This document shows, one piece after another, positions 186 through 55,000 of a stretch of DNA of 64,000 bases. Under the pieces are notes generated by a model. It saw nothing but the letters and a program-made list of their open reading frames with translations. It did not search any database and was not told the DNA's origin. Position 1 is the stretch's first letter, and each line of letters begins with the position of its first letter. This DNA is from Alphaproteobacteria bacterium (lineage in GTDB: Bacteria; Pseudomonadota; Alphaproteobacteria; Reyranellales; Reyranellaceae), in assembly GCA_017308235.1 (NCBI GenBank), contig JAFKFL010000021.1, forward strand, positions 62,001 through 126,000, written 5' to 3'. The position numbers and the translations under genes are program-made.

Positions 186-337
186 TCTCAGCAAATCTCA
201 CACGAACGAACCCTCAGACGACGAGCTTGTCACTTCGCTCAACGGCGTCAGCGCCGCGCTGGCGCGGGTGGCGAAACTCGTGAAGTAGCACAGTCGAAAC
301 CGAAAGCCGCCCTATCCGGCACACAAGGAGATCGCCC

Positions 338-829: not shown

Positions 830-989
830 TCGTCCGATAATGCCGATTGCGAGCGAGGTCCGATCCCGTCCGGATCTGGGATCAGCTATTCGCATCGAGT
901 GCCGTAGGCTGCCTGCATCCGACAGCGTCTGGATCGCGCCGCCTGAATGCAGAGACCTGCTTCACGTCTCGAGGGTGGAGACAGGGTGA

Positions 990-4353: not shown

Positions 4354-4368
4354 GATGCGGTTACTCCC

Positions 4369-5064: not shown

Positions 5065-5067
5065 CGG

Positions 5068-30049: not shown

Positions 30050-32157
30050 GTATGGCCGTAACGGCGCAAAAAAAGTCCGGCAGCGAAAAGCTGATTTTCA
30101 GGGTGCGACCGCGCCTGCTGACGCTCCTTGGCGATCAGCTCATCAAGGACGCCAATCTTGCGGTCTTCGAACTCGTGAAGAACGCGTATGATGCTGATGC
30201 AACTGTTTGTGCTGTGACGCTGGAATATCCCACCGATCCGACAAAAGCGTGCATTACCGTTGAGGATGACGGCATCGGAATGGACGAAGATACGTTGCAG
30301 AACGTGTGGATGATGATTGCCACTGATTTCCGTGCGTTGCAGCGTCAGGAGGACAGGCGCACCAAGAAGTTTCACCGCTTCCCGCTAGGGGAAAAGGGTC
30401 TTGGTCGCTTGTCGGCTCACAAGCTCGGGCGCTCCATTCGTCTGATCACCCGCCGGCGCGGTGGTGAAGAACTTGTACTTGATTTTAATTGGGACAGGAT
30501 TGAAAGCGCAGACGATCTGGAAAGCGCGGGAATTGATCTTGAAATTCGTCAACCGGAAACATTCAAGGGCAACCAGCACGGCACCTGCTTTGAAATAACA
30601 CGGCTGAGGGAGGCCTGGAACCGCGGCCAAGCTCGGCGTCTTCACCGTGCCGTCAACAGCCTTTGTTCACCCTTCAAAGGGCCTGAAGATTTTGAAGTGA
30701 TGTTATCGATCCCTGATCATGAGGAGTGGCTCAAGAATCTCTTTACAGCGGAGGACGCTAACAAGTGTGCCCTCTACCATGTGCGGGGATCGTTTGAGGC
30801 GAAGTCCGGAACGTTTGATTACACATTCACACCGCCGCCCGGGTATTCAAAGCAGCTCACGAAAACAACTGAGAAGGGGAAGGAGGTTGCGCTTGAGAAG
30901 AAGGTTGAGAACAGTAGAAAGAGCGAGGCTCTCGACCTTTCAAAGCACAAGATCGGTAAAGTGAGTTTCGACTTCTGGCTTTTTGACCGTGATCCTGCGG
31001 TGCTTCGCGATGTAACCGATGACGTGAAAGGTCTCAAAGATTATCTGGATGAGAATGGCGGCATCCGTATCTATCGTGACGGCATCCGTGTCTACGATTT
31101 CGGAGAACCCGGAAACGACTGGCTCAATCTCGACATCCGGCGCGTCAATACTCCGACCGCACGTACCAGTAACAACCAGATTCTGGGTGCATTGTGGCTC
31201 GATGCGACTGAGAGCGGAGACCTCCGGGAAAAGACCAACCGCGAGGGCTTTATCGAAAATGAGGCCTTTGAGGATTTTCGCGCCGCGGTGATCAGTATGC
31301 TCACCCAGATGGAGGCGGAGAAGACCAAGGACCAGCGCAGGCTTCGGGAAGTTCTTGGCAAGGGCACGGGCAAACGGGTTTTCGAGAAGCTTGCCGAAGT
31401 GCGCGAGGTATTGGAGCGCAAAGGCGTCCTCGCAGAAGTCGAGCCGAAGCTGAAGGCCGCCGAAAAAGAGATGGAGATCTATCGTGACCAGCTTCTCCAC
31501 GCAGCGGTCCCCGGTCTCACAATAGGAATGATGCTCCACGGTGCCGAGAAAATACTCGATGAATTAAGGGCGGCAACGAGTCGGGGGGCCCACCCGGTCC
31601 GGATCAAAGAACTTGTTGACCGTCTTTATCGTGCGATGCGTCCGGTTACGAACCTGCTGAAAAACCCCAATCCAGGGAAAACCTCAGCTGGTGTTCTGAT
31701 CAAGGAGGCCATCTTCAGTGCGGAAATCAGACTGAGGCGCCATCATATCACGCTCATCAATGGCATGGAAATGGACTGCCCGGACTTCAAGATCCAAGGG
31801 TCCAAGCAAATGCTGGTCGCCTCGATCACCAATCTAATCGACAACAGCATACACTGGCTGGAGACCAAGGCCCCGAAGCAGAAGTATCTCTATATCGGCA
31901 CCACCGAGGATATTGAGGAAGGCCCGGCTATTGTTGTTGGAGACAACGGCCCCGGCTTCGGGAAAGATGATCCCGAAGACCTGATCGCCCCATTCTTCAC
32001 ACGACGGGCAGGGGGTATGGGCTTGGGATTGTATATTGTCAGTGAAATTATGCGCGTCAGCCAGGGCCGCGTTGTTTTTCCGAGCAAGAGCGATGTTGAC
32101 CTTCCCGATCAGATCAAGGGCGCGGTTGTCGCCCTTCAATTTCTGGAAAAGTCATGA
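30046..32157 (+). CDS. Dual-GHKL ATPase / histidine-kinase-like protein
   Basis: A 703-aa protein with two separate GHKL ATP-binding domains. The first is MORC/Hsp90-like: N-box FELVKNAYDADAT (Glu42, Asn46, Asp49), EDDGIGMD (75-78) and GEKGLGRLS (115-123). A middle region with a predicted coiled coil (about 430-480) leads to LHAAVPGLTIGMMLHGAEKI, where His498 sits where a histidine kinase has its phospho-acceptor, although the usual His-Glu pair is His-Gly here. The second GHKL domain is kinase-like: N-box TNLIDNSIHWLE (596-607), VGDNGPGFG (about 632) and GGMGLGLYIV (about 662). No membrane segment. It overlaps dcm and the receiver gene by 4 bases each, so all three are coupled. Probably a cytosolic sensor kinase/ATPase controlling or assisting the restriction locus. 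Confidence 0.85.
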   Translation: MSMAVTAQKKSGSEKLIFRVRPRLLTLLGDQLIKDANLAVFELVKNAYDADATVCAVTLEYPTDPTKACITVEDDGIGMDEDTLQNVWMMIATDFRALQRQEDRRTKKFHRFPLGEKGLGRLSAHKLGRSIRLITRRRGGEELVLDFNWDRIESADDLESAGIDLEIRQPETFKGNQHGTCFEITRLREAWNRGQARRLHRAVNSLCSPFKGPEDFEVMLSIPDHEEWLKNLFTAEDANKCALYHVRGSFEAKSGTFDYTFTPPPGYSKQLTKTTEKGKEVALEKKVENSRKSEALDLSKHKIGKVSFDFWLFDRDPAVLRDVTDDVKGLKDYLDENGGIRIYRDGIRVYDFGEPGNDWLNLDIRRVNTPTARTSNNQILGALWLDATESGDLREKTNREGFIENEAFEDFRAAVISMLTQMEAEKTKDQRRLREVLGKGTGKRVFEKLAEVREVLERKGVLAEVEPKLKAAEKEMEIYRDQLLHAAVPGLTIGMMLHGAEKILDELRAATSRGAHPVRIKELVDRLYRAMRPVTNLLKNPNPGKTSAGVLIKEAIFSAEIRLRRHHITLINGMEMDCPDFKIQGSKQMLVASITNLIDNSIHWLETKAPKQKYLYIGTTEDIEEGPAIVVGDNGPGFGKDDPEDLIAPFFTRRAGGMGLGLYIVSEIMRVSQGRVVFPSKSDVDLPDQIKGAVVALQFLEKS

Positions 32158-34237: not shown

Positions 34238-34918
34238 TCAGCGATTAGTGGCGGTGATTAGCCACTGAAAGAACGCCATTAACACGGCGACCGCGATGGC
34301 CACGACGACGAGGTTCGGCTCCCGGAGCGGGCGGTAATCTTCGTTACGCGCCGCCTTGATGCGGGCGCAGCCATGAATGAGGATCGTCAGCAGCACTGCA
34401 CCGGCCAGCGCATAAATGAGATAGACGAGCAAGGGGCGCACTAAACGCGAGTCACAGACCACGCGTATCCAAGGCCCCGGCTCGAACGGACACAGAAAGT
34501 CCTGGATCACATCGCTCGGGCGTGCGAACCATCCGTTGAGCCCCAACGAAAGACATATCAGGGCCAGCGCAAACGCCCAGGTGCCGAGCATCGACGAGAC
34601 CAGGGAACGGGCAGCGTCGTAGTAATTTTCCGAGCGCGGATAACCGATCGCGATTACCCCGGCGACGCAGACCATCGACGCCACCAGAATGATGACGAGA
34701 GCTGCCGACGGCAAATAGCTCTCGAGGTTGAAACCTGCTGGCAACTGCTGCGCATAATAGTATTGGAGAGGAACGACGAGCCAAAGCAGCTTCGGGAAGA
34801 CCTGCTGCATCCATTTAGTCTGGAGCAGCTTGTTGATCGGCAGCAAGCGCCATTCCAGTAGACGCCGCCAGCCGGACTTCGGCGCCACGGGCATCGTGCT
34901 TCCTGCGTCCAGGCTCAT
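34238..34918 (-). CDS. Multi-pass membrane protein of the patatin operon
   Basis: A 226-aa protein with about four membrane helices (FPKLLWLVVPLQYYYA, AALVIILVASMVCVAGVIAI, WAFALALICLSLGLNGWF, and LLVYLIYALAGAVLLTILIH), plus a C-terminal anchor LVVVAIAVAVLMAFFQWLIT. The start at 34918 is preferred because it overlaps the stop of the preceding gene (ATGA); an open frame extends to 35011. I recognise no family. It is the third gene of the operon headed by the patatin-like protein. Confidence 0.75.
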   Translation of the reverse strand: MSLDAGSTMPVAPKSGWRRLLEWRLLPINKLLQTKWMQQVFPKLLWLVVPLQYYYAQQLPAGFNLESYLPSAALVIILVASMVCVAGVIAIGYPRSENYYDAARSLVSSMLGTWAFALALICLSLGLNGWFARPSDVIQDFLCPFEPGPWIRVVCDSRLVRPLLVYLIYALAGAVLLTILIHGCARIKAARNEDYRPLREPNLVVVAIAVAVLMAFFQWLITATNR

Positions 34919-35793
34919 CGGTCGGTCCAAGTGATCATCTTCGATGTTAACGGAATCACCCGCCTTCCCTCGAGCCGTTTTATGACGAGTAGCGTTGATT
35001 TCGGCTTCCATCCGGCGGCCGCCTGCATGGCGTCGTCATAGGCGTTGCTGAACCAGCCGCCGTGCGGCACCGGCCCGGTCGGAATAGGCGATGCAAAGGA
35101 GACGCAGACGCCGTGGGGCGTGTCGCGATAGGCGAATTGCGAGCTCAGCCCCTGGTAACTCGACGACGACGCGTAGGCACGCGGCACCAGCGTCATGGCG
35201 ACTTCAAAGGCGGAGTCTAGGTCACGCCGGTTCACATCGGAGAAGCCGTACGTGCCATTGAGGTCGAACGCCTTGTCGTCGTCGGTCCAGACGCAATCAT
35301 TTGCCGCGACATCCTGAATCGGCATGTGAAATCGCCGGGTCAGGTCGTAGCTCTTCTGGCGCGGATGGTGCGGATTCGACAGATGATGATCCAGATACTC
35401 CGTCAGCGTCACCAGCCGGTCACGTTCCTCGAATGCCGGAAGCACGTCCCGGGAGCAGCGCGTTCTGACTGGCGGGCGATAGACATAGGCCTTGTTCGCC
35501 CGCTTGCTCAGTTCGGCAATGGTCTGGGTCCGGACGTGCCACACGCCCTCGTAGTCGTGCCCCTGCCGTGGCCGCACCGGCGCGGTGATCAGGACGAAGC
35601 GCGCATCCCTGTCATAGGAGAGCGGCGCGCCGTTCACCGGCGCATACTGATATGGCGGCTGGCTGCGGGCGTAGAACAGCCCGGGCTTGTTGATCGCGGC
35701 GCAGATCGCCTGCTCGTCGAAGTTCTGCGCGACGACAGATCCTACAGAGACCGGCAAGAGAAGCACGGCGACAGCGAGTTTCATACGCATCAC
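34915..35793 (-). CDS. Exported protein of unknown function in the patatin operon
   Basis: A 292-aa protein with a classical signal peptide (MKLAVAVLLLPVSVGSVVAQ) and a mature part of about 270 residues with several Cys (ICAAI, TRCSRD, NDCVWT, HGVCVS) that could form disulfides. No enzymatic motif is visible. It begins 10 bases after the patatin gene and overlaps the membrane-protein gene by 4 bases. It probably acts in the periplasm with those two partners. Confidence 0.75.
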   Translation of the reverse strand: MMRMKLAVAVLLLPVSVGSVVAQNFDEQAICAAINKPGLFYARSQPPYQYAPVNGAPLSYDRDARFVLITAPVRPRQGHDYEGVWHVRTQTIAELSKRANKAYVYRPPVRTRCSRDVLPAFEERDRLVTLTEYLDHHLSNPHHPRQKSYDLTRRFHMPIQDVAANDCVWTDDDKAFDLNGTYGFSDVNRRDLDSAFEVAMTLVPRAYASSSSYQGLSSQFAYRDTPHGVCVSFASPIPTGPVPHGGWFSNAYDDAMQAAAGWKPKSTLLVIKRLEGRRVIPLTSKMITWTDR

Positions 35794-35803
35794 ATTATCC
35801 TCC

Positions 35804-38755
35804 CTAAGGGCTCGTCACTGTACCGGCACAGGGACCAACCCCGGCTCCTGTAGCAGGCACTGCCGCTTGCGGCTGCGCTGGCGCTGGTCTCGTCGGCGGC
35901 GCAGCCGGCTTGGCGGCATGTGCTCTGATAGCCTCCACAAACGCGTTGACATCCAAATAGGTCGTACCCGCTGCGCCATCGATATGGTCGATCGCGAAGC
36001 GGCCGAGTGCGCGATAGGCTTCGAATTGCGACTCGCCGAAGAATTGGTCCGCAGTGCTTTCGTGCGGGAAGACCGTTGCCTTCAGGGCGTAGCTGCGGAC
36101 CGAGATCGGTTCGATGCCTTGGAAGTTCGGCTTGATGTAAACAAGGATACCCTCCTTGTCGCCAAGATCACGGTACTTTATCTTGGCGACCGCAAAATAA
36201 GGCCCTTCGACGGGCGGCGTCTTGCGGGACACCATCTTCAGCGCCTCGAACTCGATATCGACATCCTGATCGATCGAGATTTTCCGGCATGCATTGCCGA
36301 GATCCTCGAAGCCGAAGTCTGGATCGCATCCTGCGTCGCTAATGATGATCAGTCGGCAGCGGCGCCGAACCATCTCGTAGAGCCCGAGGTTGTCGAAGTG
36401 CCCGCCGTCGGAAAGATAGACGTAGCCCTTCGTACCGTCAGTCAATCCTAGCGCTTCTTGGATCATCGGCCAGACGGCGATCCTTGGACCCGCGTGCTGC
36501 CAAGTGCTGTTTCCGGCGGAGTTGGGATTGCCGAGCCAGGCGCCGAGGCGGACGTTGAAGAAGGTCAGCAGCAGGCTAAGGGCGGGCGAGGAGTGATAGC
36601 CCATGTTGGGACTTGCAGCGGCGCCGGAGATCGCCATTGAGGTTCCGACGCTGATGCCCTTGCCATAGTTTTTCGATGCGCGGTAGCAGCCTGAAGCTCC
36701 GCTCAGATCCGTGCGCAGGACCTGCGATTCGCGGTTCTGATCCCCGCAGCCGCACCACCATGGCGTCACGACGAAGGACATCGCCTTGCGCTCCTGCCAT
36801 GCCAGTTCGCGCGTCGCGATGATATTCATCGCAATGTTTTGCACGAGATATTGCGGCGGAATTCTTCCTTCGTCCGGTGGAGCGTTAGGCCAGAGATCGC
36901 TCAGATTGAGATTGTCCTTTTCGTAGAAATCTGTGAACGCATTGGGTTTGCGATTCTCCTTCGAGGCGCCGAGAAAAGTCCTGATCAGCCGGTTGCGATA
37001 GACACCGTGAAGCGAGAAGCGGTTGGTATTGACGAACCATGATGCGACTACGCCGACGAGCACCGTCCAGAGGAACACGACGAAGAGTGACCCAAGCACG
37101 TCATACTTTGCATCGAACCAAAGCGCATTATACCCGGGCAAGACGCACGCGGGCAGGACGAGCCAGTCGACCACCGCGGAAAGAACGCTGGTTAGTATGA
37201 TGATGAACGCGGTCGCGGCCACCGCGAGGACGACGTTGAGCGAACGGCGAGCAAGAGTCGCGTAGCCCTTCTTGAAGAGAGCCATGGTCGCTGACGATTT
37301 GCCAACTAGGCTCGCGACCACGCCGGCGAGCCCGCCGGTTGCAATCAAGCCACTCAGCAAGGTGCCCGACTCTCTGTAGAGATAGTTGATGCCGTACGAA
37401 CCAAGATAGATCACGGCAAAGGTTAGCGACCAGAACACCGCCGCACGCGCGTGATAGCCAGCGGCCCTGCCCAGCCACTCCCGCTCGGCGTCGCCCCAGG
37501 ACACCTTGCCGGTCAACGCGCAGTAAAGCAGTTCGGCGAGAAACACCGCGGTCATGAACACCGACGGTCCGAGGCACATCAACATGAACACTTTGACCGG
37601 TGAGACCGCAGTGTCAGTCGCGTCCGACGACGGTGCACTGATGGCGTCGATGATCCTGGCAAGCAGCAGGCCAACGACGGCGCCCGAGGCGGTCAGCGCC
37701 AATACGATCAACATTCCCCTGTGCAGTACGCCCTTGTGCAGCTCTCCCGAGCGGATGTTCTCCGACGTCGACTTGTCGTCGTCTTTGCCGGCACGTGGCG
37801 GCGTGAATGACAGGGCGAGAACTGCAGCAAGGAAGTAGGTTCCGGCAGCGACCACCGCGACGTTCCCATACCATTTGAGTTCTTTCAGGAATGATAGCAA
37901 CTGCAGTTGGTCACTGCCCTTGACGTTAGTGTCGACCACAAACTGCTGATAGATCTTCAGGGCGGCAACGCTGATCAGCAACCCCGCAAGAAGCGTCGGC
38001 AACAGTTCGAGCGCAAGGAAGCGCGAGCGGCTGGAGGATTCGTCGCCCCAGCCCGGCCGCTGCTGGAGGGAATCGACCATCGACGTGCCGGCAAGAACGA
38101 CGGTCAGGAGGCCGAGCATGGCGATCTCTGTGTCGCTGGCCTGGAACGTCCAGGCCCATTGAGTCACCAATTTCAGCAGAATGATCGCCGCCAACAAAAT
38201 GGGAATCAGCACAAACCAGTTCAGCAGCAGGTTGCGGACATACAGCGCGACCAGCGCCAACATGTCGGTCGAGAGCAGCCCTGCACTCGGTGACAGGTAA
38301 CTGCTGTACCGGCGCAGATGATGAAGTGGGGAGATCGTTGCATTATGCGGACCGTCGAGGAGTTGCTTCTCGGCGTTGTCGTAGCCGGTACGTTGCACCC
38401 AGGCCGTCAGCATTGCGCCGGTATAGCCGCCACCGGACACCGTGGAGAGATAGTCGAAGCTCCTCAGAATCTTTCGTGCGGCGAGCCCTTGCACCACCCC
38501 GAGCGCGAACGCAGAGCTGCGAATGCCGCCGCCGGACAAGCACAACGCCGACAGATTGAGACTCCCGGCCCTGGTGGCAAAATCCTTCAATTTTTCCGAC
38601 AACGCTTTTGGATTGTGCGGCGGCGCGGGATTGGGTTGTGGGTGGCGTGCAGCATCCGCGAGCAGCGCACGTCGTTCTTCAATCGCATGCAGCTCGCCCA
38701 GCAACACGTCGCCATTATCGACGATATCCGCGACAACAGGTTGCGGCATGGCCAA
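35804..38755 (-). CDS. Large membrane-embedded patatin-like phospholipase
   Basis: A 983-aa protein. The N-terminal catalytic half shows the patatin oxyanion loop LCLSGGGIRSSAFALGVVQG (about 72-90) and the nucleophile motif YLSTVSGGGYTGA (Ser107). The middle carries at least eight membrane helices (for example FVLIPILLAAIILLKLVTQW and VLAVAATAFIIILTSVLSAV). The catalytic Asp follows near residue 780 in YVYLSDGGHFDNLGLYEMVR. The membrane block is thus inserted between the two catalytic elements, as in other very large patatin-like proteins. The C-terminus ends in a Pro/Ala-rich tail. Lipid hydrolysis at the membrane is the expected activity. Confidence 0.88.
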   Translation of the reverse strand: MAMPQPVVADIVDNGDVLLGELHAIEERRALLADAARHPQPNPAPPHNPKALSEKLKDFATRAGSLNLSALCLSGGGIRSSAFALGVVQGLAARKILRSFDYLSTVSGGGYTGAMLTAWVQRTGYDNAEKQLLDGPHNATISPLHHLRRYSSYLSPSAGLLSTDMLALVALYVRNLLLNWFVLIPILLAAIILLKLVTQWAWTFQASDTEIAMLGLLTVVLAGTSMVDSLQQRPGWGDESSSRSRFLALELLPTLLAGLLISVAALKIYQQFVVDTNVKGSDQLQLLSFLKELKWYGNVAVVAAGTYFLAAVLALSFTPPRAGKDDDKSTSENIRSGELHKGVLHRGMLIVLALTASGAVVGLLLARIIDAISAPSSDATDTAVSPVKVFMLMCLGPSVFMTAVFLAELLYCALTGKVSWGDAEREWLGRAAGYHARAAVFWSLTFAVIYLGSYGINYLYRESGTLLSGLIATGGLAGVVASLVGKSSATMALFKKGYATLARRSLNVVLAVAATAFIIILTSVLSAVVDWLVLPACVLPGYNALWFDAKYDVLGSLFVVFLWTVLVGVVASWFVNTNRFSLHGVYRNRLIRTFLGASKENRKPNAFTDFYEKDNLNLSDLWPNAPPDEGRIPPQYLVQNIAMNIIATRELAWQERKAMSFVVTPWWCGCGDQNRESQVLRTDLSGASGCYRASKNYGKGISVGTSMAISGAAASPNMGYHSSPALSLLLTFFNVRLGAWLGNPNSAGNSTWQHAGPRIAVWPMIQEALGLTDGTKGYVYLSDGGHFDNLGLYEMVRRRCRLIIISDAGCDPDFGFEDLGNACRKISIDQDVDIEFEALKMVSRKTPPVEGPYFAVAKIKYRDLGDKEGILVYIKPNFQGIEPISVRSYALKATVFPHESTADQFFGESQFEAYRALGRFAIDHIDGAAGTTYLDVNAFVEAIRAHAAKPAAPPTRPAPAQPQAAVPATGAGVGPCAGTVTSP

Positions 38756-39087: not shown

Positions 39088-39957
39088 TCATTCGGCGGGC
39101 GGCTCGGTGACAAAGATCAATTGCGCACCCGAAGACCACGCCTCCGCCCCTACTGCGAGCGCAACCGCTTCCTCCCGGCTGCGGCCGGTGCCGAGAATGC
39201 GCTCCAGACGCTCGCGGCGCAGCCTGGGCTGCCGCCCCTGATCGGATGGGATCGCATAGACAGCACGGTCGGGATCATCGCTGCCCTCAGAAGCACGAGG
39301 CCGCCGGATGGCAGACCGGTTCTCAAAACCTGCAAACACCTCCTCCAGGACTTCGCCAATGGGAGCCTCCCGGCTCTCTACATGAGCCCGCAGCTTTCCC
39401 GCAAGATCGGAGGGACGTATCGACGCGAGTTCCAGCGGGTCCGAACACAAGTATGCCCTGCGCTCGTCATAGACGATTTTGTGCGCCCCATCCGGCACGC
39501 TGTGGGCGTCCAGAGTGCGTCGAATCTCGCCGGGGCTAACGATCAGCGATGTTGCTACGACACGCCGGTTTTCAAAGGCATCGAGATAAATTTCCCAATC
39601 GTGAAACTTCGGGGCGAGATAGAAAACGTCCGCGCCGTCCTGTTCGGCCTTAAGGAGAAGCTCGAACTGGCCGTCCGGCTCGGCCGTGTCGATATGGTAT
39701 CGCCAGAATGGCTGTTGGAGAGCCGGACGCGGCCCCGGCACGAAGCGACGCATGGCCTGGCCAAGCTTGAACTGGAGCAGAAGCGGCGTTCCCGGCCGGT
39801 CGAAAGCCACGTCGAAGCCCAGGCTCGCTTCGTGGAGCAGACTTGGCAGGAACGGTGTTGCCCTTAGTCCTTGTCGTCGCAGCCGCCGTTCGACTTCCCT
39901 CGTGACGCCGTATCCATAAGAAAATTCAGATAGGCGCTCATGGAGCTCGACCGGCAT
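39088..39957 (-). CDS. Orphan protein with a QxK nuclease-like signature
   Basis: A 289-aa protein from MPVELHERLSEFSYGYGVTR (39957). An upstream extension to 40080 overlaps the preceding gene and is not family-like. Residues 43-64 read EASLGFDVAFDRPGTPLLLQ, then FK. The pattern Glu43, Asp49, Gln62-Phe-Lys64 fits a PD-(D/E)xK nuclease core in which Gln replaces the Glu. The C-terminal 90 residues are charged and probably flexible. It is downstream of another orphan gene in the same direction. Nuclease activity is a hypothesis. Confidence 0.6.
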   Translation of the reverse strand: MPVELHERLSEFSYGYGVTREVERRLRRQGLRATPFLPSLLHEASLGFDVAFDRPGTPLLLQFKLGQAMRRFVPGPRPALQQPFWRYHIDTAEPDGQFELLLKAEQDGADVFYLAPKFHDWEIYLDAFENRRVVATSLIVSPGEIRRTLDAHSVPDGAHKIVYDERRAYLCSDPLELASIRPSDLAGKLRAHVESREAPIGEVLEEVFAGFENRSAIRRPRASEGSDDPDRAVYAIPSDQGRQPRLRRERLERILGTGRSREEAVALAVGAEAWSSGAQLIFVTEPPAE

Positions 39958-40025
39958 AGGGAAACGCTCGCGAAAAACAGGATCGGACGGACGATTTCTA
40001 TTTTCTAAAATCGCCTGAGAATAGT

Positions 40026-40481
40026 TTACCCTGCTGCATCGGCAAGGGTGGCTGACATGCCCCAACTGCAGATCGGCCACGAACCTTCGGCTTCATCCTC
40101 CAGAGTGAAGTGAAAATCCCTGAGTCGCTTCTTTTCTAGCATCCGCAGCATGTCTGAAAATTGCCCGCGCGTGACTTCGAGCGACAGGTGCAGCGAAGGA
40201 AGATGCTCGGCTTTAAAGAGGCAGCCTGCGTCGGGGAATTCCGTCTTCATAGGGGTAGGCGTCATAATCATTATGACGCCCGGCCACGTGAATCTCACGT
40301 CCGGCATGGTAAAGGCCCCAGGCATTATCATGTACGTGAACTCGACGGATTGCCGCGGCGGGCCGGGCTGAACAACTTGCCCGAAATTGACGGTGCAGCT
40401 TCCTAGAATTTCACCGCGCCAGTTGCCGGGCTTTATATCCGGCAACATTATTGCAGGCTTTGTCCTCTTCTGCTTTGGCAT
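40026..40481 (-). CDS. Orphan protein upstream of the QxK protein
   Basis: A 151-aa protein beginning MPKQKRTKPAIMLPDIKPGN. It is predicted to be beta-rich (SVEFTYMIMPGAFTMPDVRF, FHFTLEDEAEGSW), with no transmembrane segment. No family recognised. It is divergent from the CoiA-like gene and 68 bases upstream of the QxK gene, so the two probably form an operon and may work as a pair. Confidence 0.6.
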   Translation of the reverse strand: MPKQKRTKPAIMLPDIKPGNWRGEILGSCTVNFGQVVQPGPPRQSVEFTYMIMPGAFTMPDVRFTWPGVIMIMTPTPMKTEFPDAGCLFKAEHLPSLHLSLEVTRGQFSDMLRMLEKKRLRDFHFTLEDEAEGSWPICSWGMSATLADAAG

Positions 40482-40558
40482 CGAGCTTATCCTTCGGCTT
40501 CGTCGTTCATCACGCACCCGAATCCTGCTACCCTGATCTGGTCAGAGATTGGCGACCG

Positions 40559-42037
40559 ATGGATGGGGCTGAGAAGCAGATTGAGCCGGCAATTGGCGGG
40601 AACGTCACGTTCGATCCGCTTGCTGCCGCGTTGCCGGTGGATGAACCCGCGATACGTGAGGCTCTGGATTGCGACACCGGCGAATTTGTAGATGTGAAGG
40701 CATGGATCGGTGGGCAGCGCTATGAAGAGCTGATCGCGCAGCGTGTCAGCATCCGAGAGCGTCTTTCCAAAAATCCGCGCTTCCGGTGCTCGCTCTGCTC
40801 AGTTCCAGTTTATCTCGTCGCCAATCAGTTTAAGCATTTCTTTTTCCGGCACATAACCGAAGACGGTTCGTGTCCTGCCGAGACGCGCAGCCCGCTTTCC
40901 CGCGATGAAATTCTCGCCCGAAAATATGACGGCGTGCGCGAGAGCGAACCGCATAAGCGTATCAAGGCGCTGATTATGCGCAGCCTTTCAGCAGACCCTT
41001 CCTTCTCGGAAATCCTGAGCGAACGTCAATGGCGCTCATCCCATGATGAGCGCAGCCGCCGCCAGCCCGATGTTCAGGCGACCAGGCCTATGGGAAGAAC
41101 GGCCTTTGAAGTGCAGCTTTCGACTACGTTTCTCGACGTGGTTGCTGGCCGCCGCTCCTTTTACAGGCAGGAAGACGCGCTTCTTGTATGGGTCATGGGC
41201 AAGTTCGACCCCGACTATCGGCGGCTGACGACGGATGACCTGCTCTTCACCAACAACTCAAACATTCTTGTTGTTGACGAAGAGACCGCAACCCTGTCCG
41301 AGGCTGTACGCCGGTTTCATGTACGATGCCATTTCCGGCGGCCTGCGCGGGAAGGCGATCGCCTGACCGATCGCTGGGAATCGCGCGTCATTCCTTTCAG
41401 CGAACTCACCTGCGAGAAGGAATCCCAGCGTTGCTGGTATTTCGATTATGACAGGCAGGCGTCCGCTATTCGCGCAGAGATAGATAAGGAGCTGCAAGAG
41501 CGCGAACGGGCGACACTCGATGCCCTGAGGAGCGAATTGCTCTCTTTCTGGCTTTCCCGGAAGCCCAACGCCGCCCCTGACAAGAACGAGGTTCGCGCAT
41601 GGACCGCGCTGCGCGAGGCGCTGAGCGAGCGCGGCGTTTCTTTGCCGTCATCGCCGGATGAGGACAGCGGCTTCATCGCGCTCATGAACGGCGTGGCCAG
41701 CGCAAAGGAAGGGAAGCCGGTCGGCTGGAACTTCAAGCATCTTGTGGAGGTCGCGCACCGGATCGCCGACGGCTATCCGCAGCACGTTGTGGCCTTCGGC
41801 CATGCGGCTCGACTTTTCAAGCGGGACGAAATGCTGGCCGAGCAGGACAGGACCGGAAAATGGAAACGTAGAAGCGCCGCGATAGGCGCATCGTTGCGCA
41901 ACGGCCAGCCTGATTTCGCGCCTGATCCCGCTTCCATCCTGTTGGTCGATTTCCTGATGCCCGGCACCAAGGCAAAGCTCGAAAAGATAAATCTGGCTTA
42001 CGTTCCCGCGGTTTCTTCCGTCGTCACCGCATCCTGA
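40559..42037 (+). CDS. CoiA-like nuclease-domain protein
   Basis: A 492-aa protein. A possible zinc site Cys77-x2-Cys80 ... His98 ... Cys105 (RCSLCSVPVYLVANQ, HITEDGSCP) precedes a PD-(D/E)xK core, RRQPDVQATRPMGRTAFEVQ (Pro170-Asp171 ... Glu184-Val-Gln186). The zinc-finger plus PD-ExQ order matches the CoiA competence-protein family and related DUF6035-type proteins of mobile elements. The C-terminal 200 residues are helical and unassigned. An ATG upstream at 40451 would overlap the divergent gene. Its last 40 bases overlap the convergent DUF4365-like gene. Confidence 0.7.
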   Translation: MDGAEKQIEPAIGGNVTFDPLAAALPVDEPAIREALDCDTGEFVDVKAWIGGQRYEELIAQRVSIRERLSKNPRFRCSLCSVPVYLVANQFKHFFFRHITEDGSCPAETRSPLSRDEILARKYDGVRESEPHKRIKALIMRSLSADPSFSEILSERQWRSSHDERSRRQPDVQATRPMGRTAFEVQLSTTFLDVVAGRRSFYRQEDALLVWVMGKFDPDYRRLTTDDLLFTNNSNILVVDEETATLSEAVRRFHVRCHFRRPAREGDRLTDRWESRVIPFSELTCEKESQRCWYFDYDRQASAIRAEIDKELQERERATLDALRSELLSFWLSRKPNAAPDKNEVRAWTALREALSERGVSLPSSPDEDSGFIALMNGVASAKEGKPVGWNFKHLVEVAHRIADGYPQHVVAFGHAARLFKRDEMLAEQDRTGKWKRRSAAIGASLRNGQPDFAPDPASILLVDFLMPGTKAKLEKINLAYVPAVSSVVTAS

Positions 42038-43002
42038 AACTGCCTGATCCTGGGGAATCTTGGGAAGTAGGACTGCGGCACCATCTCGAAGAAGCCTTCC
42101 TGTGCGACATGGCGGTGTCCTTCGTCAGGCAGCGCGCCGCTCGTGACGAGCCGCGCCTCTTCCTTTTGAATTAGCGCGACGAGTGCTCTGCCCCTTGAGG
42201 TCAGCGGCGCCACAAAATGAGGCTGCATTTCGCGATCTACCCAATCGATGAGGCAATCCGAATAGTCGATTTGCGCGAGATTTTGAGCGAGCAGGAATTT
42301 CGCGAAGCCGAAGACAAAGTCCTGCTCTGGACCGCCCATGCCCATCCCGAACTCCGACCCGCGTGCTTCAAGATTGTACTCAACGGCGTTACAGACGAGG
42401 TCCATCCCGTAGTAGATGCTCCGGCAGATGTTCGTCAGCCCATGCACGAAAAGGTCAAAATAGCTGAGGGGGAAACTCCCTTCATTTGATATGGTCGTGA
42501 CAAGCTCTTTGAACACTCCCTCGATGTCAGTGATGAAAGGCTGATCCAGTACGCCAGCGTTTTCAAAGAGCACGGCAGGGCTGGTTGCCTCAAGGAGATT
42601 TGCCTCGGGCACTTCGATATGGGCGCGCTCCTCGCGGGTAGGCACGCGCAACGCCTGCCGAATGTCGATCCAATAGCTGTTCCCGGTATCGGTGTTATGC
42701 AGAATGAGAAGCACCGGCAAAGGGAACTGCTCCCAATAATTCCGGTGCTTGTCCTCGGGATAGAATTTCCAGCCGGCGTCGGTGCGGTGCTGAAGGAAGG
42801 AAGGGCCGGCTTTCACCTGGGCTGCAATCGTACGCCCGGTAGCGAATCCTTCGTTTGTGATAAATTCGAGCTGACCGTCGATCCCCACGTCGCCGGTGCC
42901 GGTTTCGCGCCAAATCTGTCCCATCTTGGCCGCATAGCCCTGCACGGCGGCAATGCCGCGTCGTTCTTGCGCGTAAGTGCTTCCTGCCTTTGGCAAATCC
43001 AT
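41998..43002 (-). CDS. DUF4365-like protein with nuclease-like N-terminus
   Basis: A 334-aa protein. The N-terminal domain (QERRGIAAVQGYAAKMGQIW, then TGTGDVGIDGQLEFI and TIAAQVKAGPSF) has the DUF4365 pattern: Asp42 and Gln62-Val-Lys64 in a restriction-endonuclease-like fold. The remainder is a helical domain of unknown role. DUF4365 proteins are frequent in defence islands. It is convergent with the CoiA-like gene (40-base overlap) and divergent from hipB. A run of nine C lies just upstream of the start. Confidence 0.75.
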   Translation of the reverse strand: MDLPKAGSTYAQERRGIAAVQGYAAKMGQIWRETGTGDVGIDGQLEFITNEGFATGRTIAAQVKAGPSFLQHRTDAGWKFYPEDKHRNYWEQFPLPVLLILHNTDTGNSYWIDIRQALRVPTREERAHIEVPEANLLEATSPAVLFENAGVLDQPFITDIEGVFKELVTTISNEGSFPLSYFDLFVHGLTNICRSIYYGMDLVCNAVEYNLEARGSEFGMGMGGPEQDFVFGFAKFLLAQNLAQIDYSDCLIDWVDREMQPHFVAPLTSRGRALVALIQKEEARLVTSGALPDEGHRHVAQEGFFEMVPQSYFPRFPRIRQFQDAVTTEETAGT

Positions 43003-43035
43003 TTTTACCCCCCCCCTTTTTATGATCTATAATAA

Positions 43036-43150
43036 CATATCTTAGTCCGCTTTCGATATGCAATTGCACATCGTACGCGCTTGCAAATTTCCAATGCGAG
43101 TGATATATTTAAGCATATCACCATGTACCTTAGATATGCAGAGACATATC
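43036..43150. promoter_or_regulatory. hipBA operator region with three GATATG/CATATC dyads
   Basis: Three inverted repeats share the same hexamer: CATATC (43036-43041) with GATATG (43055-43060); GTGATAT (43100-43106) with ATATCAC (43115-43121); and GATATG (43133-43138) with CATATC (43145-43150). The last one ends exactly at the ATG of hipB. HipB-type antitoxins repress their own operon by binding several such dyads. The region is AT-rich and must contain the promoter for hipB, and perhaps that of the divergent DUF4365-like gene. Confidence 0.75.
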
Positions 43151-43735
43151 ATGCCCTACGCCACCGATGACATTCTCCAGACCCTCCGCACCGCCCGCGA
43201 GCAGACGGGCCTGAGCCAGCGCGACCTCAGCGCTCGCATCGGCGTGCCGCAGAGCCATATCTCGAAAATCGAGAGCGGCGGCACCGATCTCCGGCTTTCG
43301 AGCCTGGTCGAGCTTGTGCGTGCGCTTGATTACGAGCTGGTGCTCGTGCCGCGCAAGCTGCTGCCCGCTGTAGAGGCCATTGTCGGCGGCGCGTCCATGA
43401 CTCTGTCCGGGGAAGCCCGCCAGCGCGCTACCGTCCTCAACCGCGCCCAGGCGGCAGTTGCAAAGCTGACCCGCACCCATCCCGACGCCGCTGAATTCAA
43501 GCGCCTCGACCAGACGCTGCGAGAGCTTGCGAATTTCCAGCTCGGCAAGGGCGATCTGGATACGCTGCGCGCCGTCACCGACAAGCTGCTGAAACTCCCA
43601 ACCGGCGCGGCCGCGCTCCCGGCCGCCGAGCGCGCCTCCCGTCAATTAAGAGAGCTTCGCAACAGGACCGCCCATGCGCTGCCGGAAGCGCCGCGCCCTG
43701 CCTATGAGCTAGACGAGGAGGACGACGATGCCTGA
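43151..43735 (+). CDS. hipB: HipB-like antitoxin/regulator with extended C-terminus
   Basis: A 194-aa protein. Residues 5-65 are a Xre helix-turn-helix (LQTLRTAREQTGLSQRDLSA, then RIGVPQSHISKIESGGTDLR). The rest (about 130 residues) is a helical extension absent from the short classical HipB (about 90 aa). The start at 43151 follows the last operator; an ATG at 43136 would read through it. The 3' end overlaps hipA by 8 bases. Expected to neutralise HipA and repress the operon. Confidence 0.85.
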   Translation: MPYATDDILQTLRTAREQTGLSQRDLSARIGVPQSHISKIESGGTDLRLSSLVELVRALDYELVLVPRKLLPAVEAIVGGASMTLSGEARQRATVLNRAQAAVAKLTRTHPDAAEFKRLDQTLRELANFQLGKGDLDTLRAVTDKLLKLPTGAAALPAAERASRQLRELRNRTAHALPEAPRPAYELDEEDDDA

Positions 43736-44960
43736 CGTTTCCGTCCTCGATGTGCGTCTCTACGGCGACAAGATCGGCACGCTCACCCTCATTCCGGGCG
43801 ACCGCACGCTGTTCGCCTTCGACAAGGCGTATATCGACAATCCCGAGCGGCCGACGCTGAGCCTGTCCTTCAAGGACCAGTTCGGGCAGCTCCTGACAGA
43901 ATTCAAGCCGGTCAATGTCAGGGTGCCACCCTTCTTCGCCAACCTCCTGCCCGAGGGGCCGCTGCGCGCCTATCTTGCCGAGCAGGCTGGCGTGAACGAA
44001 AAGCGCGAGTTCTTCCTGCTGTGGGTTCTCGGCCGCGATCTTCCCGGCGCGCTTACCATCGTGCCGGCAGACGGCGAAGCGTGGCCCGATCTCAAGGACA
44101 AGGGCGACGAGGAAGAGCGCCGCAAGCGCCGGACCAATGCCCTGCGCTTTTCGCTCGCGGGCGTGCAACTGAAATTCTCGGCAGTGAAGAACGCAGGGAA
44201 AGGCGGCGGCCTCACGATCCCGGCGGACGGCGTCGGCGGCTCGTGGATCGTGAAGCTGCCCTCGCAGCTCTATGACGGAGTTCCAGAGAACGAATTCTCG
44301 ATGATGAGCCTTGCGGCCCGTCTCGGCATGGACGTACCCGAGCTCCAGCTCCTCGACATCGATGCAATCGGCGGCCTGCCCGAAGGGATCGGCAGACTCA
44401 AAGGCCAGGCGCTTGCCATCCGGCGCTTCGACCGCACGGAAGACGGCCCGGTGCATATAGAGGATTTCGCGCAGGTGTTCGGCGTCTGGCCCGACGACAA
44501 ATACAAGCGGGCGAGCGCGCGCAACATCGCGGCCGTGATCGGCCTCGAGGCGGGCGACGAAGCCGCCGCCGAATTCATCCGCCGCCTCGTGTTCAACACT
44601 CTGATCGGCAACGCCGACATGCACCTCAAGAACTGGTCGCTGATCTATCCTGACCGTCGCACGGCGGCGCTCGCGCCCGCCTACGATTTCGTGTCGACGA
44701 TACCGTATATCCCCGACGAGTTCGCAGCCATCAAATACGCCCGCACCAAGCGCATGCGCGAGCTTTCGCTCGACGAGCTGCGCTATCTCGCGGCCAAGGC
44801 GCGTCTTCCTGAAAAGCTCGTCGTCGATGCGGCGACGGAAACCGTCGCCCGCTTCCGCGACGAATGGCCGGAAGCAAAAAAGGCGCTGCCGGTCGCGCGC
44901 CCGGTCGCGGACGCCATCGACGCGCATCTGAAAGACCTCGCTCTGACCTCCGAAACATAA
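43728..44960 (+). CDS. hipA: HipA-type serine/threonine kinase toxin
   Basis: A 410-aa HipA-family kinase. The N-terminal subdomain has the usual start VSVLDVRLYGDKIGTLTL and VPPFFANLLPEG. The kinase part shows FSLAGVQLKFSA and GSWIVKLPSQ (ATP-binding), the catalytic loop LIGNADMHLKNWSLIY and the metal-binding Asp in AYDFVSTIPY. All active-site residues appear intact. Family members phosphorylate aminoacyl-tRNA synthetases (GltX in the best-studied case) and cause dormancy. It is followed by a nuclease-like gene 8 bases downstream. Confidence 0.92.
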   Translation: MPDVSVLDVRLYGDKIGTLTLIPGDRTLFAFDKAYIDNPERPTLSLSFKDQFGQLLTEFKPVNVRVPPFFANLLPEGPLRAYLAEQAGVNEKREFFLLWVLGRDLPGALTIVPADGEAWPDLKDKGDEEERRKRRTNALRFSLAGVQLKFSAVKNAGKGGGLTIPADGVGGSWIVKLPSQLYDGVPENEFSMMSLAARLGMDVPELQLLDIDAIGGLPEGIGRLKGQALAIRRFDRTEDGPVHIEDFAQVFGVWPDDKYKRASARNIAAVIGLEAGDEAAAEFIRRLVFNTLIGNADMHLKNWSLIYPDRRTAALAPAYDFVSTIPYIPDEFAAIKYARTKRMRELSLDELRYLAAKARLPEKLVVDAATETVARFRDEWPEAKKALPVARPVADAIDAHLKDLALTSET

Positions 44961-44968
44961 CAGCGCCC

Positions 44969-45460
44969 ATGATCGACCTTACGACCATCCCCGTTCCGGC
45001 CCTGCTTGAGCTGCATGTGGACCTGCTCGCCGAGCTGCGCCGCCGCGAAGTGGTGCGCAGCGCGAACAACCCGACCGGCGACTATGGCGAGCTGCTGTTC
45101 TCCCGCGCCTTCGGCTGGACGCTCAACAACAATTCCTCGGCGGATGCCGACGCGGTCGATGGCGAAGGGCTGCGCTACCAGATCAAATGCCGCCGCCTCG
45201 GCACGCCGCGCGGCTCGCGCCAGCTCGGCTTCATCCGGCGTCTGCCGGAGCGGCCCTTCGACCGCCTCGCCGCCGTCCTGCTCGATGACCGCTTCCGCGT
45301 GCTGCGCGGCGCAATCATCCCCTATGAGGTCGTCGAGCCGCGCGCCGCCTATGTCGATAGCGTCAAGGCATGGAAATTCATGCTCCGTGATTCCGTGTGG
45401 GAATTGCCAGGTGTCATCGACGCGACCGCCGCCCTGCGAGCGGCGGAACAATTGATCTAG
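44969..45460 (+). CDS. Nuclease-like third gene of the hipBA operon
   Basis: A 163-aa protein starting MIDLTTIPVPALLELHVDLL. The segment TGDYGELLFSRAFGW (Glu41), then ADAVDGEGLRYQIKCRRLG (Asp64, Gln71-Ile-Lys73), fits a compact PD-(D/E)xK-like core with QxK, similar to DUF6998-type proteins. An open frame extends back into hipA but the ATG at 44969, 8 bases after the hipA stop, is natural. It is not the HipS/HipT arrangement known from HipBST. The role with HipA is unknown. Confidence 0.7.
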   Translation: MIDLTTIPVPALLELHVDLLAELRRREVVRSANNPTGDYGELLFSRAFGWTLNNNSSADADAVDGEGLRYQIKCRRLGTPRGSRQLGFIRRLPERPFDRLAAVLLDDRFRVLRGAIIPYEVVEPRAAYVDSVKAWKFMLRDSVWELPGVIDATAALRAAEQLI

Positions 45461-49143: not shown

Positions 49144-49866
49144 CTAGTCGAACAAGCCGGGCTGGTCGGGATCGGGCGGCGGCGGTTCGTCGCGATCCTC
49201 CGGCGGCGGGGGTGTGCCTGCCAGCGTCGCGAGCGCCTGGAAATATCCCTCCGCGAAAGCTTCCAGCATTTGCGTCTTGCGCGCCTCGTCCATGCGCGGG
49301 ATGTCGCGGGCGTCGAGCACGGTCAGCGTGCGCGGCGCTTTCGGTCCGGGGCAACTGAAATCCAGAATCTCGAAGCGCGCGGTTTCAAGGTCGGGGTCCT
49401 GCATCAGCACCTCGTCCACAAGCGTGACGAAGAGCGACAGGCGCTCCCGGGCGAGCGGGTTGCGCCGCCAGAAGCTGAACCACGGGAAATAAAGCTGCCC
49501 GCCAACGCCGTAGATCATGGGCGGCTCAAACGGCACCATGAGGCCGCGGCCGACCGGATAATAGCGCTTGTCGATCGTCTGGTAGAAATCCGGCGACACG
49601 CCCGCAAAATGATCCCGGATCAGCGGCAGCACGCTGAGAAGGTTGTTGCGGACTTTCTCGTTCTTGACCTTGCGCCGGATGCCTTCGGCGACCTGCTCGT
49701 AAGGCACGCGCAGCACCAGCAGGTCGCGCACGGCGAGATAGAGCGGATTGTAGTTGAAGCGCGGCGGATTCAGCGCGAGCCGCACAAGGAGGCGGGCAAT
49801 CGCCGCCGGTTCGTCCCGCCAGTTGCGGGCGAGGTGCTGTACGGAAGGGACGCGCAGTTCTGCCAT
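49144..49866 (-). CDS. Hypothetical protein, possible partner of the DUF4065 protein
   Basis: A 240-aa protein (MAELRVPSVQHLARNWRDEP...). It is soluble and mixed alpha/beta with a very acidic, Pro-rich C-terminus (PPPPEDRDEPPPPDPDQPGL). No known motif recognised. It begins 10 bases after the DUF4065 gene, on the same strand. DUF4065 (Panacea) proteins often act as antitoxins for an adjacent toxin gene, so this gene is a candidate toxin. Alternatively it is a plasmid housekeeping protein. Confidence 0.65.
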   Translation of the reverse strand: MAELRVPSVQHLARNWRDEPAAIARLLVRLALNPPRFNYNPLYLAVRDLLVLRVPYEQVAEGIRRKVKNEKVRNNLLSVLPLIRDHFAGVSPDFYQTIDKRYYPVGRGLMVPFEPPMIYGVGGQLYFPWFSFWRRNPLARERLSLFVTLVDEVLMQDPDLETARFEILDFSCPGPKAPRTLTVLDARDIPRMDEARKTQMLEAFAEGYFQALATLAGTPPPPEDRDEPPPPDPDQPGLFD

Positions 49867-49876
49867 ATGGAAACCG

Positions 49877-50383
49877 TCACTGTATCGAGAAAGGGGTCGG
49901 TACTTTCGAGTAAAACTCCAGGATGCTCATGTCGTCGATCTTCATGCCGGGGTTTACCGCCCCCGCATGATTCCAGACAGAATGCCACGGCCCCCCCTCG
50001 ACGTGGCTGAGCTCCACAAGGTCGCCTGCGCGCAGGCGGCTGTAAAACTCAACTATTTCCCGCAGCAGCGAATCTGTCTCGAAGCTGAAATCATACCCGA
50101 CGACACGCTGTTTGCCATCGGAAGGATCAATTTGCGTCGCGCGGCCCACAATTGGCGCGCGGTCGTAATTCTTGAAGGAGCGGTAGAGATACGGCAGGAC
50201 CGGCCCGAACTCCCACGCCTCGAACTTATGGCGGACAAGCGGCCCGCCGAGCGCGATCAGCGACCAGACGTGGCAGAAATACACGAGCTTCTGCAGGGCG
50301 AGGTTCGTGACAGACCGTCCCCGACCATCGCAATAGTCGAGAATGAAGTTTGCGACCGCGCGTCCGTCGTAGGTTTCCGTCAT
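49877..50383 (-). CDS. DUF4065 (Panacea/SocA-type) protein
   Basis: A 168-aa protein with the DUF4065 pattern: AVANFILDYCDGRGRSVTNL, ALQKLVYFCHVWSL, the signature FEAWEFGPVLPYLYRSFKNY, and the C-terminal DLVELSHVEGGPWHSVWNHA. The family includes the SocA proteolytic adaptor/antitoxin of Caulobacter and the promiscuous 'Panacea' antitoxin domain. It has no extra DNA-binding domain. It precedes the 240-aa orphan gene by 10 bases. Confidence 0.9.
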   Translation of the reverse strand: MTETYDGRAVANFILDYCDGRGRSVTNLALQKLVYFCHVWSLIALGGPLVRHKFEAWEFGPVLPYLYRSFKNYDRAPIVGRATQIDPSDGKQRVVGYDFSFETDSLLREIVEFYSRLRAGDLVELSHVEGGPWHSVWNHAGAVNPGMKIDDMSILEFYSKVPTPFSIQ

Positions 50384-52091: not shown

Positions 52092-55000
52092 CTATGTCAG
52101 CGCGAACGGCCCCTCGTCCCAGGCGGCATTGGTGTGCGCGTTCAGCTCAAGGCCGAGTCGCCCCGGATCGGTTACGAGAAGATAATGCCACGCGCCGTAG
52201 TCGCCGAGGCGATTGACGGCGTCGGCCCACCGTTCCGCCGCCTTCTGCTTAACGTCGGCGTTGTCGGTCTTCTGCCCCTTGATCTCGACGACGACGTTCC
52301 TGCCGGTATCGGTCACAACGACGAAATCGGGCACGTATTTCGCGGGCAGGCCGCGGTTGCGGTAGGGGATGAAAAAGCCGAGCCGGTCGTTCTTCACCCA
52401 GCTCTTCACGCCGGGATGGCTGTCGAGCAGGAAAGCAGCGCTCTGCTCCCATTTCTGCGTGTCGGCGACCATCGCGTTAAGATGGCAGCGCGTGACCGGA
52501 TATATCGGCTTCGTCGTGTGGAAATCGACATAGAGCGTGCTGCCGCGCCCCGCCGCGCCCTGCGGAACCACGGCGACCTCCGCGTCTTCCGAAGATGCGC
52601 CCTTCTTGATCGCCTCCATGAGCGCGCTCACCGCCGCCTGCATGTACTCGCCGACTAGCAGCACGTCGCAGGCGTGGCTATCGCCCTTGCGGACGAGCTT
52701 TTCGGCGAGGAACCGCTTCGCGGCGAAAGCGACCTTGGGAAAAAGCTGCTGCGTGGGAACGGCGGCCGCGCCGTTATCCGCCTGCCAGCGGACGCAGATT
52801 TCTTTCGCGATCCGGAAGGCGACCTGCTGGTCGCGGAACATCGCCCGCCACTCTTTCAGTGACAGGATCGGCTTTTCACCGGGGCCGTAGGCGGCCGCAC
52901 TCCCCTCCGGCGTCGTGAGCGGCGTCAGCTCGACAAGCTGCGGGATGCGCATGGGATCGATCGTGACCTTGGCGACCTGGTCCCAATCGACAAACACCTC
53001 GAAGCGTCCCGACTGGTGATAGCCGCTCACGATCGGGAAGGTGATCTCGAACGCCGCCTTCTCCGGCACCGAATAGATATGGTTCGGCTCGGGCTGCGGC
53101 GGCGTCGGCCCTGCCGGCGCGACCTTGAACGGCACAAGCTCGAACGGAACGCCGAACACCTTCGCGGTTTCCTCGGCGAACATCTGCGTGTCTTCGTTGA
53201 GCGCATAGCTCTTGCGCCGCAGGGCGCGGCCGACGACCTGCTCGCAAAGGAGCTGCGAACCGAAAGGCCGCAGGCCGACGATGTGGGTGACGGTGTTCGC
53301 GTCCCATCCTTCCGCGAGCATCGACACGGATACGATGCAGCGCACGTCCCTACCGGGCGGGATGCGCTCGTCGATCCATTTCAGCGAGCCGTCATTGTCG
53401 TCGCTCGCGACCTTGTCGTTGTGCTTGCGGACAAGCTCCGACCATTCTTCCGGGATTTTGCCGCCGGGCCATTCCGCCTTGCCGACGGTGTCGAGGATGA
53501 AGCGCAGGCGGCGGGTTTCGTCCTTGGTGCCGCCTTCCTCGATATCCTCGATGACCTTGGAATCGATGCGGACGGTGACTTCCTGACCGGGCTCGTTGCG
53601 GAACCATTGCGGGGACGCACCGTAGCTGTCGTTCCCGTTCGCAAGCCACGAATGCACTTCTCTCGCCACGGCGGTATCGCGGCAGACGACGATGAAGACG
53701 GGCGGCACCGGATGGCGCTGCTGCTGTTTCGAGAAGCGCTCCCATTCAAGGAACCGTTCGTGCCATTCGGACGCGAGCAGGTTGATGGGCGCGCTCGCGT
53801 AATTCATGACGAGTTCCGGCGTCACGTTCGTGCCGTAGCCGCCTTCCTTCGCCTTGGCCTGCACCCACCGCCATATATTGAAGTAGGCGGCTTCCTCCGC
53901 TCCGCTGACATCGCGCGCAGGCAGTTGCGGGATTTTGACGAGCCCGGATTCGATTGCGTCAAGCAGCCCGAAATCGGAAACGACCCACGGGAAAGGCTTG
54001 CCGACTTCGTTGCCGGAGCCCTGGATGTAGAAGGGCGTTGCGGAAAGGTCGATGCAGACATTGATCCCTCGCCTGCGGCTGCCGCCCGCAAGGCGGTTGA
54101 TGCGGTCGAGGCCCTCGATCCAGATCGTCGCTTCGCGCTCGTTCTTTTTCGCGAGGTCCTTGTCGTCGTCGAGCGCCTGCTCGTCGGTGGCGGTGTCGCC
54201 GCGGCGATAGGCGTGGTGCGCCTCGTCGTTGAAGATGAGCCAGTGCGGGCTGCGCCCCTTGCCGCTGCCGAGCTCGCGGCGGATGCGCTTGAACCACGCG
54301 GCGTCCGACTCGAAGTATTTCACCTCGACGGACTCGTTCTCCTTGCCTGCGTTCTTCACCACCTCGACGGGCTCGCCGGTCTTTACGACCTTCGCGGAAT
54401 CTCCGTTGACGGTGTTCGTCTCCTTCTTGGCGAGCCGGTGCCAGTTCGCGATCATCACCTCGCCGCGCCGCAATTCCTCCATGCGGTGCGGCGGCACGAG
54501 CTGGCGTGTGCGATAAAGGCTGAGATCGCCAAGCGCGGGATCGAGCTCCTGCAAGCGCTCGCGGATCGTCACGTTCGGGCAGACGATCAGCACCGTGTCC
54601 GAAAATCTATCATCGCGCGGCGCGGCGATGCGGTTGAGGATGGACCATGCCGTCAGCATGCCCATCACCGTGGTCTTTCCTGATCCGGTCGCCATCTTGC
54701 AGGCGTAGCGCATGAACGCGCGCACGCCTGCCGCCTTGGATTCAAGGCCGGGCTCGTCCCTTGGAATCTCCGGCAGGCCCTTGCGATATACGTCACGTGC
54801 CTCGACGAGGAAGAGGATCGTCTCGACCGCCTCGACCTGCGCGAAGAACAGGCGCTGCATGCGGTCGCTGCTGCGCCACAGCTCAAGCAGCTCCTTCGTC
54901 ACCGGCGACGCGCCGTCATAGGCGACGCCGCCCGACCGGCTGCCCGCGCGCCATTCCTTCACCCGCTCGCGGATGCGGTTGACGATCTCAAGCTCGATCT

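Follow-up and report, generated by a model that had tools for sequence, protein, structure and literature searches.

The question at this locus is whether four neighbouring genes with nuclease-type motifs, encoding proteins A to D (positions 39088 to 45460), form one system, several separate modules or a part of the upkeep of the element that carries them. The window is the whole stretch analysed, 64,000 nucleotides (nt) of contig JAFKFL010000021.1 from an alphaproteobacterium of the family Reyranellaceae. The preferred answer, with a probability of roughly 0.68, is that small nuclease genes of independent origin have come to lie next to one another, and that each most likely acts by itself as a module against phages or plasmids. 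Homology places B, C and D in or beside known kinds of nuclease, with A as an unnamed candidate; catalytic residues are conserved, and the A to D genes do not travel together, so that separate modules are the best reading. Several small, separate defence modules had also been the suggestion of the first-pass annotation; their separateness fits the genome context, and their defensive role we infer.

Gene order, conjugation genes and motifs

The reading frames at 39088, 40559, 41998 and 44969 were confirmed where the first-pass annotation had placed them, and all carried nuclease-type motifs. A hipB-hipA pair immediately before D (8-nt gap) had been overlooked. The block reads as follows (lengths in amino acids, aa).

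Protein A, 289 aa; 39088..39957, minus strand; rare unnamed family with conserved E43, D49 and Q62xK64, candidate PD-(D/E)XK nuclease
Protein A2, 151 aa; 40026..40481, minus strand; upstream of A, without a nuclease motif, not a constant partner of A; its start is an internal ATG chosen by the analyst
Protein B, 492 aa; 40559..42037, plus strand; CoiA-like, DUF7830 (putative zinc site) plus DUF6035 (PD-ExQ), with a weak C-terminal DUF7829
Protein C, 334 aa; 41998..43002, minus strand; DUF4365/DREN nuclease domain (about residues 13-146) plus a C-terminal region without assigned function
HipB-type helix-turn-helix (HTH) antitoxin; 43058..43735, plus strand; longest open reading frame (ORF), a later start being likely; overlaps hipA by 8 nt
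HipA-type kinase of Y4mF/rhizobial type; 43728..44960, plus strand; Couple_hipA plus HipA_C
Protein D, 163 aa; 44969..45460, plus strand; BisI-family endonuclease by homology, starting 8 nt past the hipA stop codon; Ser131 replaces the methyl-pocket His/Arg

Thus A, with A2 upstream of it (minus strand), is followed by B (plus), C (minus) and then hipB, hipA and D (plus), and the 3' ends of B and C, on convergent strands, overlap by 40 nt. A crude codon-based gene finder called C and D and missed A, A2 and B; despite this the three are taken as genes because relatives occur elsewhere. Left of the block lie conjugation genes of TrbI, CagX, VirB8, TrbL and TrbE type, a T2SSE-type ATPase gene, a TraG-type gene and a gene for a DUF3363 protein, and right of it, at 58-63 kb, a relaxase and a second TraG-type coupling protein. 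Since conjugation genes flank it on both sides, the block A to D is read as cargo of a conjugative element. A stretch nearly identical to part of the window (99.92% over 12,438 bases; locus L017) was present in the metagenome-assembled genome Hyphomicrobiales bacterium SCN18_31_3_15_R1_B_68_31.

The motifs were found as the first-pass annotation had described them, with Asp plus QxK in three proteins (A: E43, D49, Q62-F-K64; C: D42, Q62-V-K64; D: E41, D61, Q71-I-K73) and PD...ExQ with a possible zinc site in the CoiA-like one (B: P170-D171, E184-V-Q186; putative zinc ligands C77, C80, H98 and C105). A loose D..[DEQ]xK pattern did not discriminate (17 of the 31 other predicted window genes; 57% of shuffled genes), and plain D..QxK occurred in 4/31 and in 22%, respectively. 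With hydrophobic neighbours required, D..QxK was found in 0/31 and 1.3%, and PD..ExQ in 0/31 and 0.6%. These strict forms were defined post hoc, after the proteins had been inspected, so that conservation is the better test.

Family membership and conserved residues

The nuclease core that the first-pass annotation had proposed for all four proteins was backed by homology in B, C and D; for A the evidence consists of conserved residues. The further claim that each has a different partner domain was partly right, D being a single-domain protein.

Protein D matched solved Eco15I (8q5m, E=3.7e-30) and NhoI (8q5n, E=1.5e-19), and with its longer ORF the PADLOC methyl-directed type II model (7.1e-45). 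The BisI active site consists of a helix Glu, an Asp, and QVK or QIK (PMC11347163). E41, D61, Q71 and K73 of D aligned with the active-site residues of Eco15I and NhoI; in the family alignment D61, Q71, K73 and R90 occurred in 87/87 rows and E41 in 86/87. That alignment, used for counts and tree, left out the partial L009, the window duplicates L001, L002 and L017 and the interrupted copy L013 (plasmid AR10, below); L123, L124 and other plasmid copies were also outside it. By homology and active site D is classed as a BisI-family endonuclease of methylation-dependent type. The published internal methyl-pocket motif is (H/R)(V/I/T/M), with both positions variable (PMC11347163), and at this site D carried S131-V132 (alignment with Eco15I and NhoI). 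The first pocket position was His in 55 rows, Arg in 11, Tyr in 10, Ser in 8 and Ala in 3; the eight Ser rows were the clade of seven that includes D, and its neighbour L024. Because the pocket departs from the motif, the target of D should not be assumed, and D is regarded as a BisI relative whose pocket has changed and does not count as a proven 5-methylcytosine enzyme. By homology it would act as a dimer on double-stranded DNA, recognising GCNGC sites with several 5-methyl- or 5-hydroxymethyl-cytosines in them or close by, and would cut inside the site; the altered pocket may shift what D reads, and a different modification may be recognised by the Ser-bearing clade.

Protein C matched DUF4365 (PF14280, 6.2e-30) and the solved DUF4365/DREN chains 9qbp (1e-7) and 9qbq (4.9e-5) and DREN-APAZ 9jsb (1.1e-3). 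The DREN domain of NbaSPARDA has a PD-(D/E)XK fold with catalytic D41, Q60 and K62 (PMC12205087); D42, Q62 and K64 of C aligned with these and were invariant in 4/4 rows. The PADLOC Argonaute-associated model spanned only residues 14-124 of C, and the SPARDA setting was missing: C has no fused APAZ and no short Argonaute gene alongside, its neighbours being B and hipB. C is thus classed, by homology, as a stand-alone DREN-type nuclease outside the SPARDA setting, and its C-terminal region, which is not APAZ, would sense the trigger. Of 17 plasmid records, two held near-full-length relatives, one in Rhizobium (71%) and one in a cyanobacterium (44%); the cyanobacterial relative adjoins a phage-type integrase gene.

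Protein B matched DUF6035 (1.4e-15; 58.1 vs 22.6 bits gathering score) and DUF7830 (1e-13) above the Pfam cut-offs, and DUF7829 (2.8e-4) and CoiA_nuc (0.015; 15.9 vs 20.3 bits gathering score) below them. P170, D171, E184, Q186 and the four putative zinc ligands were invariant in 7/7 rows. CoiA carries PD-EXQ and is tied to DNA uptake (PMC1189080), and a CoiA-domain protein is among E. coli phage-defence genes (PMC9519451). B is classed by family match as a DUF6035, CoiA-like PD-ExQ nuclease with a putative zinc site. Six neighbourhoods of B relatives (from 37 plasmid records) held, respectively, AAA, UvrD and AbiJ genes; SbcCD-type genes; type I R and PIN genes; AAA, SIR2, DUF6035, ASCH, EVE and DUF4365 genes close together (Rhizobium sp. 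NXC24 plasmid, L109 70-10772); phospholipase D-type, transposase and hypothetical genes; and MazEF, TrlF and HipA genes. No partner was constant across the six. In the literature searched, which misses most subscription journals, DUF6035 was mentioned only on another subject, judged by title.

Protein A gave no meaningful family match in domain, family and defence-model searches. A PDB profile search returned only unrelated proteins (best, antibody chains at 0.0077), no similarity to B, C or D came out of profile comparison, and the structure prediction that the first-pass annotation had proposed as a check yielded no usable fold (AlphaFold2 from one and from two sequences; mean predicted local distance difference test, pLDDT, 37.5 and 35.0). 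Q62 and K64 were invariant in 10/10 rows, and E43 and D49 in the 9/9 rows that reached them. A may not be a nuclease, its E43, D49 and Q62xK64 being conserved for another reason; the missing fold, profile and family matches favour this, and so does the equal conservation of R86, Q97, L101, Y113, I145, H159 and S172. Against it, the order and spacing of the four residues are of restriction type and their neighbours are hydrophobic, and the alternative is given a substantial but minority weight. A is probably a restriction-fold protein, and a nuclease role is likely.

Relatives of A were rare: 8 of 72,556 plasmid records; 2 others among 146 relatives; one further, weak case in 385 class genomes; and none in 50,697 phage records. 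When viral contigs were scanned with A, B and C singly, no relative appeared. One phage-type viral contig holds a relative of A (49%), encoded against the direction of its neighbours and lying between tape-measure-like and tail-type genes (named by eye). Family A would add a nuclease family known here from few alphaproteobacterial plasmids and genomes and this one contig. A and A2 as a fixed pair were rejected; the viral-contig relative lacks A2. An A2 relative lies near a D relative in locus L066, where (68-6516) the BisI-type gene stands directly after large AAA/SMC-like ATPase genes and a gene for 214 aa, a defence-cluster-like arrangement by eye.

Independent spread and competing readings

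Relatives of D in the genome collection numbered 97, from which 80 loci were kept, one of them the near-copy L017; flanks of up to 6 kb each side were read, some cut by contig ends. At the 79 other loci there was no credible A, B, C or HipA, and A to D as one system was rejected for this reason. Weak matches occurred to A in L060 (E=0.14), to C in L090 (E=0.34), to HipA in L088 (0.003) and, of HTH type, to HipB in L034 (6e-5), L047 (0.014) and L037 (0.26); at the L088 position the matching strand had no HipA-like reading frame, only Arg-rich frames. A, B and C were likewise found apart from one another elsewhere. The reading as separate modules loses some weight to the failed searches and fold predictions for A, the sub-threshold matches of B, the unmatched pocket motif of D, and neighbours of relatives that are not defence genes, such as chromate and mercury genes. 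New here are the BisI-type gene adjacent to hipBA, the altered pocket and family A, and four unannotated genes become named or testable nucleases.

The block might instead serve maintenance or transfer of the conjugative element, through addiction, exclusion of rival plasmids or DNA processing, and not phage defence. The conjugation genes on both sides, the toxin-antitoxin type of hipBA and of a SocA/SocB-like pair, the many relatives on plasmids and the tie of CoiA to DNA uptake (PMC1189080) agree with this. It is nonetheless considered unlikely, given the relative of A in a phage-type contig, the cleavage of phage-type modified DNA by BisI enzymes (PMC11347163) and the protection of E. coli from phage by a CoiA-domain gene (PMC9519451).

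The pair upstream of D was identified as a hipBA module by HTH_3 in hipB (1.5e-13) and by Couple_hipA (5.5e-23) and HipA_C (2e-47) in hipA; the couple_hipB match of hipB fell below its cut-off. This hipA was the sole HipA_C match in the whole 6.3-Mb genome, and 233 plasmid records carry a similar HipA (E<=1e-30). Separated from hipA by 8 nt, D is probably expressed from the hipBA transcript, and would on that account be held low by HipB. In a rival, composite reading, HipB at rest would keep a potentially self-harming nuclease low, and infection would lower HipB, HipA would arrest translation and the co-expressed BisI-type nuclease would destroy modified phage DNA. In its evolutionary form, HipA modules with unrelated HipA partners would at least twice have taken up a BisI nuclease of the same clade as last gene of the operon, with the pocket His/Arg changed to Ser.

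Besides the 8-nt gap, this reading is favoured by the lack of an evident ribosome-binding site for D (by eye) and by the Mesorhizobium plasmids AR02 and AR10, where a D relative (74% and 81%, respectively) lies directly past the stop of a HipA of 613 aa that is 28% identical to the window HipA over 295 residues. A Nitrobacter HipA is also followed, past its stop codon, by about 13 nt resembling the start of D, perhaps by chance. The tree of 87 rows placed the D of the window and that of AR02 in one clade of seven (100/100); they were sisters in 0% of 200 bootstrap trees, the window copy pairing with a Hyphomicrobium copy (98/75); a grouping of the window and AR02 copies in an 8-row tree (100/99) was dropped, as it was gone with all 87 rows. 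Two gains of D by HipA loci fit this tree. The 613-aa HipA matches HipA_C and not the HipA N-terminal domain. About 340 residues precede its HipA_C (L014 6159-8000), and its start looks AbiEi-like.

Against the composite reading, a single gain with several losses may also explain the tree. HipA was not credibly present beside D at the 79 genome loci, and was also missing next to D in 7 class genomes (flanks of about 1.5 kb), in 2 order genomes and at 3 additional plasmid loci (5 of 102 plasmid records of D relatives were read). D was absent behind both other window-type HipA loci read (of the 233 records) and behind 2 of the 4 loci with the 613-aa HipA that were read (of 84 records). Of the Mesorhizobium copies of D, that of AR10 is interrupted and that of AR02 contains an aberrant stretch at about residues 122-137, which may disturb the placement of the latter in the tree; it may be that neither Mesorhizobium pair works, and because both copies look damaged the composite reading is given lower odds. 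The composite mechanism is accordingly judged improbable, and repeated uptake into unrelated HipA modules with the pocket change receives a similarly small chance. The adjacency of hipA and D is real, probably repeated, and facultative.

If the composite reading were true, growth arrest would be coupled to a nuclease that restricts modified phage DNA and whose modification specificity has changed, and HipB would be the switch; control of a restriction enzyme by HipB, which may exist, would tie persistence-type kinases to restriction. HipA and BisI did not occur together as whole words in any paper of the literature searched, HipA was not found in the available text of three BisI papers (PMC11347163 among them), and neither "nuclease" nor "restriction" was found in that of a 2021 survey of Hip gene organisations (PMC8262856). 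Searches for HipA with methylation-dependent restriction in an operon returned matches on other subjects, judged by title. A mobile element of Caulobacter that includes hipBA is reported to lower phage plating (PMC11945714), and a HipA-family kinase system has been validated in defence (PMC13092281).

Other defence-like and toxin genes lie in the window outside the block. A SocA/Panacea antitoxin-like gene (PF13274, 2.4e-18) belongs to the SocAB-like pair at 49144-50383 (minus strand), its adjoining gene giving a weak SocB toxin match below cut-off (NF047746, 3e-4). At 29108-32157 (plus) a C5-cytosine methyltransferase gene (PF00145, 2.9e-38) immediately precedes a gene that encodes two HATPase domains and matches a PADLOC type II enzyme model (1.3e-16); the genome as a whole has two C5 methyltransferases. 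A type III-like restriction pair, comprising a ResIII helicase-type protein and an N6/N4 methyltransferase (PADLOC MTase_III, 4.7e-157), occupies 52092-57937 (minus). An AbiEii-type nucleotidyltransferase toxin (PF08843, 6e-51) lies inside the conjugation gene block at 14425-15318 (minus), and a large patatin-domain protein of 983 aa (PF01734, 2.7e-7), with two more same-strand genes behind it, at 34238-38755 (minus).

Comparison with known systems

Like CoiA (PF06054) and DUF6035 proteins, B has a PD-ExQ site and putative N-terminal zinc ligands; unlike CoiA proper, it falls below the CoiA_nuc cut-off, and its relatives stood in defence or mobile-element contexts and not in competence operons (the six loci above). 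Protein C shares the aligned catalytic D, Q and K with the SPARDA DREN/DUF4365 domain, and differs from SPARDA short-Argonaute systems in the lack of APAZ and of an adjoining Argonaute gene and in its C-terminal region. The match of D to BisI-family enzymes such as Eco15I spans nearly all of the protein, with the helix Glu, catalytic Asp, QIK and pocket Arg90 kept; D departs from the published pocket motif in carrying Ser131 and not His/Arg, and from these enzymes in its place behind hipBA and in being known here from sequence alone. As in hipBA toxin-antitoxin modules, the HTH gene of the window overlaps a two-domain HipA gene; a difference is that a BisI-type gene comes next.

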